From assembly GCA_038746285.1 (NCBI GenBank), contig JBCDKT010000037.1, positions 1-37,204 on the forward strand: DNA of 37,204 nucleotides, in the 5' to 3' direction. Of the stretch, positions 17,935-37,204 are shown piece by piece. Below the pieces are notes generated by a model, which worked only from the letters and a program-made list of their open reading frames with translations, ran no database searches and was not told the DNA's origin. A program made the translations under genes and the position numbers. Origin of the DNA: Bacteroidota bacterium (GTDB lineage Bacteria > Bacteroidota > Rhodothermia > Rhodothermales > JANQRZ01). The first letter of the stretch is position 1. The number at the start of each line of letters is the position of its first letter.

Positions 17935-18172
<238 letters not shown>

Positions 18173-18178
18173 ACCGGG

Positions 18179-18203
18179 CGGAGTTTACCCCGGCACCGGG
18201 GCC
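18179..18203. repeat. Inverted repeat, left arm (tRNA-Pro/GIY-YIG cassette)
   Basis: The 25-base arm starts CGGAGTTTACCCC and ends CCGGGGCC, the inverse of 17570-17595. On its outer side is a further acceptor 5' strand of tRNA-Pro (minus-strand CGGGGTGT, 18211-18204). Together the two arms and their flanks therefore read as the two halves of one acceptor stem separated by the cassette. Confidence 0.8.
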
Positions 18204-21057: not shown

Positions 21058-21081
21058 GGACGGAGGACGGTGAGACGGAGG

Positions 21082-21127
21082 ACGGAAGACAGTGGACGGA
21101 AGACAGTGGACGGAAGACAGTGGACGG
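21082..21127. repeat. 14-bp minisatellite after valS
   Basis: Three perfect copies of ACGGAAGACAGTGG plus ACGG, preceded by looser versions (ACGGAGG, ACGGTGAG) from 21058. It fills the space between the valS stop and the promoter of the next gene. Confidence 0.9.
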
Positions 21128-21159
21128 TTGGCGCAGAGCACAACGGTCTCGCTAACTTG
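21128..21159 (+). promoter_or_regulatory. Promoter of the FxLYD lipoprotein gene
   Basis: TTG (21128-21130), a 22-bp spacer, then TAACTTG (21153-21159), close to TTTG-N-TAnnTTTG. The expected start near 21166 places the whole octamer array in the leader. Confidence 0.5.
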
Positions 21160-21173
21160 TCTGGCTTTTCTTG

Positions 21174-21246
21174 ACTCGCCCACTCGCCCACTCGCCCACT
21201 CGCCCACTCGCCCACTCGCCCACTCGCCCACTCGCCCACTCGCCCA
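21174..21246. repeat. Octamer tandem array 3, leader of lipoprotein gene
   Basis: Perfect (ACTCGCCC)n, about 9.1 copies. The final A of the array is the A of the ATG start codon. The 12 bases before it (TGGCTTTTCTTG) are the same as those before array 4 at 37101. Confidence 0.97.
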
Positions 21247-31236: not shown

Positions 31237-31593
31237 CGGGCGAACGAGCGGGCGCGCGACAAGCTACGGCGCACCGGCGAACGAGAGGTTTGACTGCCCC
31301 GTCTCGGCGGCAGTAGAAACAGACCGAGCGGGCCCGCTACTTCTCTACTTATCTGGCTTGTTCTCCACTTATCTGGCTTGGCCCGCCCCTGCAGGACCGA
31401 GGCGCTGGCGCGAATCTTGACGGTCGAGCAGCGGACGCGGGGACCAGCGGATGCCAGCGAGACAGCAATCTCCGAAACCGTCCCCTTTTCAGGCTTCAGA
31501 CCCCGAACTGCCTCCGCGAAATCTTTGTGCGGGCGCGCAACCCACAGCCGCGCCACCCGGTAGTATCTTTCATTGCAGACTGAAAATAACCCT
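31237..31593. other. Divergent intergenic region, lipid kinase/polyprenyl synthase
   Basis: No gene is recognised. It contains a small hairpin at about 31292-31315 (ACTGCC/GGCAGT), the 20-bp tandem duplication at 31341-31380, and a -7-like TATCTTTC at 31564-31571 in front of the polyprenyl synthase start. No convincing TTG box lies at the right distance. Confidence 0.45.
31341..31380. repeat. 20-bp tandem duplication
   Basis: TTCTCTACTTATCTGGCTTG followed by the same sequence with one change (T to C at position 6). The word TCTGGCTT also occurs just before octamer array 3. Confidence 0.9.
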
Positions 31594-35595: not shown

Positions 35596-36966
35596 CTACG
35601 CACCGGAGCGGACGGGGGGCAACGCAGGCCTCCACCTCAGCCGTACGGCCCGCTGCGTCTCCGGCCCGACAGCCCACGCGGCCCCGAGCCGGTGCCCGAC
35701 GACCCACGCGACGGCCTCGCCCGAGAGCAGCACGAGCTGGCGCGCCCGCTCGTGCGGCGACACCCGCCGCTCGGTGAGCAGATCGCTGACGTTCTTGCGC
35801 CCGGTCATCCCGAGCGGCTGGAACGCGTCGCCCGCTTGCCAGGGCCGCAGCGTGAGCGGAAACCGCAGCCGGTCTGCGTCTACCCACTCGACCTCCGGCG
35901 ACGCGTCGAACGCGGCCGGCACCGCGCTGGGCTTGCCGACGTGCAGTGTGCCGAGCGGCGTAGTGGTCTCGCCCGGCTGCACGTCGAGCGCGAACGCGTC
36001 CACCGCCGGCTCCGCCTCGAAGACGAGCCGGTCGCGGTCGCGCCAGACGGTGACGCCGGGCCACGCGACCCGCCGCCCCGGCTGCGCGCCGAGGAGCGCT
36101 TCGAGTTCGCGCACCGTCGCCTGCGAGCGTGGGGTGCCCGGAGCCCACCGGCGGAGGGCGTCGAGGAGCACGCCCCGCCGCACGGCCTCGGGCTGGTCTG
36201 CCAGCACGCCGAGCCGGAGAGCCCAGGCCCCGCCGGTCTCCTCAGCCGCCGCCTCAAACAGGCTGGCCGGTACGAGTGCTGCCTCGCTTTCGAGCGCTTC
36301 GCGCACGAGGTCGGCAGCTCCGGCGATGCGCTCGCCGACCCCTTCGCCGAAGTGCTGTTCGATGAGCGGCAGCACGGCGTGGCGCAGCGCGTTCCGGCGG
36401 TAGGCCAGCGACCGGTTCGAGGCGTCCTCTCGCCAGGCCAGGTCGTGCGTGCGGGCGTAGGCCTCGATCTCGGCGCGGGCCGCCCACAACAGCGGGCGGA
36501 TGACCTCCACCTCGGAGTCGGGCACGAGCGGCCGGCGGAGCGGCATCCCAGCGAGGCCGACCAGCCCGGCCCCGCGAAAGAGGTTCAGGAGCACCGTCTC
36601 CGCCTGGTCGTCGCGGTGGTGCGCCGTGGCAACGGCTGCGGCCCCGACCTGGCAAGCTACCTCACCGAAGAACGCGTAGCGGGCCTCGCGCGCCGCCGCC
36701 TGCACCGAGCCCTCGATCCCGGCTCGGTGCACCTTCAGCGGCATGTCGCTCTGCCTGCAGAGCGTCCGCACGAGCGCTTCGTCGGCGTCGGCGTCGGCCC
36801 CGCGCAGCCCGTAGTTGACGTGCGCCGCTGTGACCTCGTACCCCGCCGCGCGCAGCAGGTGCAGCAGCACAACCGAGTCCACGCCGCCGCTGACGCCGAC
36901 CACAACGCGCGCGCCCTCAGCGAGCAGGGCGCGCGCGTTCACGAACCGGAGAAGGCGAGACAGCAT
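35596..36966 (-). CDS. tilS: tRNA(Ile)-lysidine synthetase
   Basis: The 456-residue enzyme attaches lysine to C34 of the CAT-anticodon tRNA-Ile so that it reads AUA. The N-terminal ATP-pyrophosphatase domain has the P-loop SGGVDS (26-31), AAHVNYGLRG, TAHHRDDQAETVLLNLFRG and REDASN. The middle and C-terminal tRNA-recognition domains follow (LRPWQAGDAFQPLGMTGRKNVSDLL, then GEAVAWVVGHRLG). The start is the ATG at 36966. Its leader consists almost wholly of a 7-bp repeat, so no Shine-Dalgarno is present. It is followed by hpt on the same strand. Confidence 0.95.
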   Translation of the reverse strand: MLSRLLRFVNARALLAEGARVVVGVSGGVDSVVLLHLLRAAGYEVTAAHVNYGLRGADADADEALVRTLCRQSDMPLKVHRAGIEGSVQAAAREARYAFFGEVACQVGAAAVATAHHRDDQAETVLLNLFRGAGLVGLAGMPLRRPLVPDSEVEVIRPLLWAARAEIEAYARTHDLAWREDASNRSLAYRRNALRHAVLPLIEQHFGEGVGERIAGAADLVREALESEAALVPASLFEAAAEETGGAWALRLGVLADQPEAVRRGVLLDALRRWAPGTPRSQATVRELEALLGAQPGRRVAWPGVTVWRDRDRLVFEAEPAVDAFALDVQPGETTTPLGTLHVGKPSAVPAAFDASPEVEWVDADRLRFPLTLRPWQAGDAFQPLGMTGRKNVSDLLTERRVSPHERARQLVLLSGEAVAWVVGHRLGAAWAVGPETQRAVRLRWRPALPPVRSGA

Positions 36967-36970
36967 GGTT

Positions 36971-37042
36971 CAGAGGACAGAGGACAGAGGACAGAGGACA
37001 GAGGACAGAGGACAGAGGACAGAGGACAGAGGACAGAGGACA
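36971..37042. repeat. Heptamer tandem array in the tilS leader
   Basis: Perfect 7-bp repeat (CAGAGGA)n, about 10.3 copies. It runs from the promoter -7 box to four bases before the tilS ATG. As RNA it is a pure pyrimidine-rich (UCCUCUG)n leader. Confidence 0.96.
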
Positions 37043-37070
37043 ATTTTATACCGTTAGCCTCAGAGTGCAA
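37041..37070 (-). promoter_or_regulatory. tilS promoter
   Basis: On the minus strand, TTG (37070-37068), 19 bases, then TAAAATTG (37048-37041). It fits the Bacteroidota pattern. Transcription would begin near 37034, inside the heptamer array. Confidence 0.5.
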
Positions 37071-37100
37071 GGACGTTCGTAATTTTCGTGGCTTTTCTTG

Positions 37101-37204
37101 ACTCGCCCACTCGCCCACTCGCCCACTCGCCCACTCGCCCACTCGCCCACTCGCCCACTCGCCCACTCGCCCACTCGCCCACTCGCCCACTCGCCCACTC
37201 GCCC
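37101..37204. repeat. Octamer tandem array 4 (window end)
   Basis: Perfect (ACTCGCCC)n, 13 copies to the last base of the window. It is preceded by TGGCTTTTCTTG as in array 3, and by a -7-like TAATTTTC at 37080-37087. It presumably forms the leader of a plus-strand gene beyond the window. Confidence 0.95.

Follow-up and report, generated by a model that had tools for sequence, protein, structure and literature searches.

Why should a tRNA-modification gene begin next to a perfect microsatellite, and does the array serve that gene as a leader or belong to something else? The gene in question lies near one end of the window, by which we mean the whole of contig C37 (37,204 nucleotides) from a Bacteroidota genome of 4.08 Mb, assembled in 134 contigs and 96.6% complete. 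It occupies positions 35596 to 36966 on the minus strand and has profile matches that identify it as tilS, the gene for tRNA lysidine(34) synthetase (TIGR02432 with E = 6.7e-51, and also TIGR02433, PF01171 and PF11734), as the original prediction had it. Its start lies within about two codons of the likely starts in two relatives, G002 and G001, the latter being the sole same-genus genome among the relatives searched. From 36971 to 37042, TRF reports an array of period 7 with 10.3 copies and 100% matches, whose unit reads CAGAGGA on the plus strand and TCCTCTG on the tilS strand. Four bases, AACC in the tilS sense, separate it from the ATG at 36966, so that (CAGAGGA)10 with four non-repeat bases before the start codon, as first described, is what the locus contains. 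The accompanying view that this genome tolerates repeat leaders also holds, since the array abuts the start codon of an important gene.

A cored arrangement with two arms

The heptamers do not stand alone. An octamer array begins only 58 bp beyond them, at 37101, and reaches the contig end at 37204. The same order, a purine-rich arm, a core and a pyrimidine-rich arm, recurs elsewhere in the genome, at further sites of heptamers and octamers. At tilS the plus strand carries the purine-rich left arm, (CAGAGGA)10.3 at 36971-37042, which reads TCCTCTG toward tilS; a 58-bp core at 37043-37100, oriented away from tilS; and a pyrimidine-rich right arm found by TRF, (ACTCGCCC)13 at 37101-37204, which is cut by the contig end. 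The core model matches at 37053-37104 with E = 6.6e-9; this copy is itself a member of the core alignment, A1. Judged by this architecture, what looks like a leader of tilS is the left arm of a single copy of an intergenic element that is dispersed in the genome. The idea of a second repeat type in the same position is accordingly only half right: two types do occur in comparable positions, but at tilS the heptamer and the octamer are two arms of one element.

A second copy on the plus strand of the window, at 21058-21246, lies between the stop codon of valS and a gene for an FxLYD-domain protein. It consists of a degenerate heptamer arm (21058-21127), a core (match at 21121-21177, E = 2.9e-14) and an octamer arm ending at the ATG (21174-21246). 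A further plus-strand copy, at 2386-2549, has a variant core, AACTTTTCC...TTTCAA at about 2419-2442, followed by an octamer arm at 2443-2549; it was found by pattern, and the core model gives no match there. The same variant core with its octamer arm also occurs on C53, C34, C13 and C19, and these copies are outside the model-based count. Finally, an octamer arm detected by TRF at 1-119 on the plus strand, cut by the contig start, probably belongs to one more copy. Several copies also have a GCGCCTnCGGCGC palindrome at their left outer margin, which may be where the element really begins; it was noticed about 60-110 bases to the left of the cores L225:17500 and L230:9027, and at 2372-2388 of the window.

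In alignment A1, which holds 36 cores, the A, T and T of a TA..TT motif are invariant and its first T exceeds 90%. The 50 bp to the left of the core are 73% purine and those to the right 25%, against 50% in control regions (n = 470). A 21-base pattern of three heptamer units has 49 matches at 10 places in the genome; its reversed control has 0, so the heptamer occurs beyond chance. It forms the left arm at eight of these places and, inverted, the right arm at two (C18 and C28). Because the arms on C18 and C28 are turned over, the rule of purines on the left and pyrimidines on the right is true at all ten. Nine of the ten places adjoin a core found by the model, and the tenth (C63) adjoins core-like sequence recognised by eye.

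Arrays track the core

The core model has at least 135 matches at E up to 0.1 in this genome and at least 120 at E < 1e-3; we use the latter set, about one element per 34 kb, and both counts are lower bounds from the best 150 candidates scored per genome. Arms and neighbours were surveyed for 78 cores (E < 1e-3) in 1.55 Mb of the genome, comprising 50 merged stretches chosen partly for their arrays or cores. Taking a perfect array to be at least three units of period 6-15, we find one left of 21 of the 78 cores and right of 46, that is, on 67 of 156 arms. Among intergenic regions of at least 60 bp without a model core, the figure is 8 of 760. Four of those eight contain the variant core, and a fifth is the C63 heptamer beside its core-like neighbour; no core is recognisable by eye at the remaining three (C4, C13 and C21).

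These counts bear on the simplest account of the arrays, that they are ordinary slippage microsatellites growing under weak spacer constraint and share a core by coincidence. The three arrays without a recognisable core fit such an account, and heptamer repeats are reported to be over-represented in many bacterial genomes (PMC4692102). It is nevertheless hardly credible here, given that arrays track the core as they do, that cores align across copies with E down to 2.9e-17 (the best match in the genome), and that the copies have a strand polarity, described below. Nor can the core alignment be an artefact of the arms, because the conserved positions lie between them.

Position relative to genes

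If the arrays were leaders, they should be arranged with respect to gene starts. Both neighbouring genes were called for 66 of the 78 copies, with orientations +E+ in 30, -E- in 24, -E+ in 7 and +E- in 5; of the other 12, two lie inside called genes and ten have no neighbour in the stretch. Altogether 29 of the 66 copies face the 3' end of the right-hand gene. Junctions of convergent genes hold 5 of the 66, about the background rate of 80 in 827 (background intergenic regions of at least 60 bp being 596 co-directional, 151 divergent and 80 convergent). Of 20 perfect arrays whose outer end faces a stop codon, 15 reach to within 10 nt of it (median 3); of 38 facing a start codon, 15 do (median 15). 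These distances rest on simple gene calls with approximate starts.

The original prediction read the locus as an instance of a general arrangement of promoter, array and start codon. As an organising rule this promoter grammar is ruled out: copies face genes both ways, some lie between convergent genes, far from any start codon, and arms abut stop codons as readily as start codons. The arrangement is true by position for some copies only. More generally, before intergenic arrays are read as "repeat leaders", the side facing a stop codon should be examined too.

There is a more specific version, in which the core acts as a promoter and the pyrimidine-rich array forms a 5' leader for tuning translation or, by binding Rho through its C-rich sequence, for attenuation, array length then acting as an expression dial for tilS and other genes. 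The TA..TT, more conserved than any other part of the 36 aligned cores, would suit it, and we take that motif to resemble the Bacteroidota -7 box; likewise, a TTG/TATAAAATTG pair before the tilS array presumably resembles the Bacteroidota promoter consensus. Many arms do run to a start codon, as at 21246 (ACTCGCCCATG). Moreover, 195 of 200 shuffles fold at least as well as the tilS leader, which is predicted to be nearly unstructured, in keeping with such a role. On the other side stand the 29 copies aimed at a 3' end, the five between convergent genes and the arms adjoining stops as closely as starts, together with a sigma-70 scan of 36900-37204 that returned no site. In addition, a segment like the candidate tilS promoter is present, on the reverse strand, in two copies on C4 (L177:9628 and L178:9276), where a stop codon lies on that side, or a gene start at a distance of 143 bases. 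Since these two copies have a similar segment without a close gene start, the candidate reverse-strand promoter is not peculiar to tilS, though it may be active all the same. We regard this explanation as unlikely. Any effect on tilS expression would be incidental, the consequence of a C/U-rich leader with little predicted structure.

Empty sites and distribution in relatives

Comparison with the same-genus genome G001 argues that the element was added to existing gene junctions. In 0.64 Mb of G001 there are 109 conserved adjacent gene pairs (at least 45% identity and 60% coverage), nine of which carry the element in the genome studied here. None of the nine corresponding gaps in G001 contains an array, and none gives a core match even at E up to 10. 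The median gap of these nine pairs is 201 here vs 90 in G001, while for 67 control pairs it is 122 vs 104. The clearest empty site has about 5 bp from stop to start in G001 vs 180 bp here; two of the nine G001 gaps are long (223 and 169 bp) and filled with other sequence.

The tilS locus itself offers a further comparison. On contig C14, mutL is followed by three bases, 12 octamers and, up to the contig end, 13 bases of core, a terminus that matches that of C37. A MutL_C match is present in C14, G001 and G002, and mutL directly precedes tilS in both relatives. Because of this match and this gene order, the ends of C14 and C37 very probably meet, with the tilS copy separating mutL from tilS. 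If so, the spacer between the two genes is about 233 bp or slightly more, vs 41 bp, free of any array, in G001. The original prediction named ordinary leaders at tilS in related strains as grounds for rejecting it, and at genus level that is what G001 shows. In G002 the spacer is 376 bp and TRF finds only a 2.3-copy 7-mer in it. This G002 spacer (L063, about 1116-1491) is a different sequence, including a CATCCTGAGCGGAG-type stretch that resembles another dispersed repeat. At what is probably a single junction, the octamer count is 12 in C14 and at least 13 in C37, a difference that could be an assembly effect.

Among 99 genomes including its own, the core is found at E 1e-4 only in its own genome (at least 55 matches) and in G002 (one, E = 2.5e-6), under stricter filters and with the best 55 candidates scored per genome; it is absent at that threshold from 97 of the 98 others, G001 included. 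At E up to 0.1, weak matches number at least 5 in G001 (best 5.6e-4) and at least 11 in G002 (best E = 2.5e-6). The heptamer pattern occurs in two of 60 genomes, its own and, once, G002. Among the genomes searched, then, the element is nearly restricted to its own species. From the one relative examined for empty sites, we infer gain by insertion in this lineage rather than loss in G001.

Other repeats were seen in passing. A 93-bp direct repeat at 17982-18179 of the window (2.1 copies, 99%) duplicates part of the tRNA gene at 17935-18008 with its flank, yielding a partial tRNA copy, and a 20-bp unit, TTCTCCACTTATCTGGCTTG, stands twice in tandem (95%) between two genes at 31341-31380. Contig C37 both begins (1-119) and ends (37101-37204) inside octamer arrays. 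Twenty contig starts were read: three (L235, L241 and L242, positions 1-170) hold a repeat with TTCCCG...CGGGAA palindromes, which we take to resemble the dRS3 of Neisseria, and three (L231, L237 and L246) hold microsatellite arrays. Each kind being found at three of 20 starts, palindromic repeats and microsatellite arrays may both break assembly.

Strand polarity and replication

Copies on one contig nearly always point the same way. Of the 102 copies on contigs with two or more (34 contigs), 100 share the strand that predominates on their contig, whereas the best of 20000 random draws gives 86. Thirty-two contigs are uniform, and C13 and C28 each carry a single exceptional copy. An overlapping nhmmer set agrees (66 of 68 on the majority strand). 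Gene direction does not explain this polarity, because copies face genes both ways.

Replication is the other obvious candidate. Marker genes were chosen that usually lie on the leading strand. Six loci run opposite to the element strand, namely rpoC, rpsL and EF-Tu on C18 (three matches counted as one locus), rpsK on C9, EF-Tu on C29, an EF-Tu or IF2-like gene on C5, lepA on C3 and recA on C15, and two lie on the element strand, groEL on C19 and gyrA on C20; their identities are presumed from sequence motifs. Outside this 6-to-2 count are LSGGE-motif ABC-type matches on C18 (opposite), C16 (same) and C5 (same), and a gyrB-motif match on C9 (opposite) that is seemingly out of frame. C54 has a marker and no listed copy. 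A first motif scan of 0.79 Mb gave no match, nor did patterns for 16S and ribosomal L2.

Overall, 625 genes run opposite to the element strand vs 514 on it. When the contig signs are permuted, the p values are 0.057 (gene number), 0.043 (bases), 0.019 (GC3 skew) and 0.28 (T-A skew), from four tests without correction. Composition skew within single contigs is too weak by eye, and the signal appears only in the pooled permutation, in two of the four measures. On this moderate evidence, the polarity is probably set by the direction of replication.

A strict polarity of this kind also raises the prospect of a functional chromosome motif, of the sort that guides FtsK or stimulates recombination, kept in one orientation per replichore by selection and not inserted selfishly. 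Its appeal lies in the 100 of 102 copies whose polarity is independent of gene direction. Such a motif would hardly be missing, as the core is at E 1e-4, from 97 of 98 other genomes, one of the same genus among them. Its distribution fits poorly as well, with 2 of 78 copies within called genes and all others intergenic or at the end of a stretch, at the low density given above. To our knowledge, polar motifs are also far smaller than a 50- to 60-bp core with long arms. This explanation therefore seems to us quite improbable.

Origin and mechanism

The reading that we favour, and consider likely, is a lineage-specific inserted element whose polarity is tied to replication and whose arms arise by slippage. 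Copies would be gained as insertions at gene junctions, filling the space up to the neighbouring stop and start codons. The core would be the part that is copied, and the arms microsatellites that most likely change length by replication slippage. Insertion or retention may depend on replication direction, for example through single-stranded DNA at the fork, and the fixed polarity would follow.

How such an element would move is a separate matter. IS608 and ISDra2 reportedly use the template of the lagging strand, and that would make orientation depend on replication. A search for the Y1 transposase profile PF01797, positive in 5 of 14 control genomes, gave 0 matches in this genome (96.6% complete). 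With no Y1 gene found, mobilisation of the REP/RAYT or IS200/IS605 type is unlikely, unless it acts in trans or the gene lies in the missing 3% of the genome. A structured RNA finds as little encouragement: at Rfam gathering thresholds the window holds only two tRNAs, RNAalifold returns no consensus pair for the core alignment, and none of three folded stretches does better than shuffles. A GCGC-GGA-GCGC pattern is visible by eye in many rows of A1, and RNAalifold pairs none of it.

More tentatively, this could be a new kind of small mobile or replication-guided element: a non-coding core flanked by microsatellites, purine on one side and pyrimidine on the other, which is inserted between genes in over 100 copies and kept in a single orientation within each replichore. 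An enzyme working on single-stranded DNA at the fork might spread it, or it might be copied via an RNA intermediate, whose slippage would then produce the arms. We put this forward as a possibility that we hold with some doubt. In either form, an odd leader becomes a testable genome-wide phenomenon, in which differing microsatellite units flank one conserved core with near-perfect strand consistency. If the polarity does follow replication, the copies would preserve a natural record of how DNA comes into chromosomes at the fork, in a genome where no Y1 transposase is detected, and the family would be a source of variable gene boundaries.

Comparison with known repeat systems

Apart from the STAR paper considered below, literature listings, including those on oriented intergenic repeats and Bacteroidota, showed nothing judged to describe such an element. 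Of three exact repeat strings, only the heptamer string occurs in the literature text searched, in three Coxiella typing papers, in one of which it belongs to a primer. REP/REPIN sequences with their RAYT, and IS200/IS605 elements, the subject of PMC6006769 and PMC3116915, resemble the present element in being short and intergenic; they differ from it in that here no Y1 gene was found, no consensus hairpin is predicted, and the arms are microsatellites.

Among the nearest kinds are the GGGAATC and GGGGA(C/T)T heptamers of Xanthomonas and Nostoc, which form mostly intergenic, genome-wide arrays (PMC4692102). There the G-rich strand is the coding strand after stops and the non-coding strand before starts, much as the arms here are purine-rich on the left and pyrimidine-rich on the right. 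In contrast, those arrays showed no leading/lagging preference, where 100 of 102 copies of the present element share the majority strand; their units form G-quadruplexes, while CAGAGGA repeats have no GGG runs; and the portion of that description drawn on here gives no two-armed core of the kind present here.

The TAACTGA direct repeats of Beggiatoaceae, Cyanobacteria and some Bacteroidetes (PMC4679880), also among the nearest kinds, are similar in other ways. According to the sections of that paper used here, these heptamers lie a few nucleotides from start codons, also before presumably essential genes, some relatives have shorter, array-free spacers, and several Bacteroidetes and Cyanobacteria have longer arrays. 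They differ in being present at 2-6 copies in the main genome described and in standing mostly forward before starts, where a translational role was suggested. Here, the units are CAGAGGA and ACTCGCCC rather than TAACTGA, arms abut stop codons equally, and there is a core.

The STAR elements of Staphylococcus aureus (PMC3532100), the nearest of the interspersed repeats, are, as far as the relevant part of the paper describes them, likewise interspersed and intergenic, GC-rich with direct repeats, and show locus-specific length changes and structural differences between lineages. Their 14-bp repeats are separated by spacers of about 40 bp, whereas here perfect arrays of 7-9 bp units flank one core in a fixed polarity. 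Two arms, one core and fixed polarity are thus features that the element of this genome brings together, and that are combined in none of the Xanthomonas/Nostoc, TAACTGA and STAR descriptions, within the portions of them considered here.
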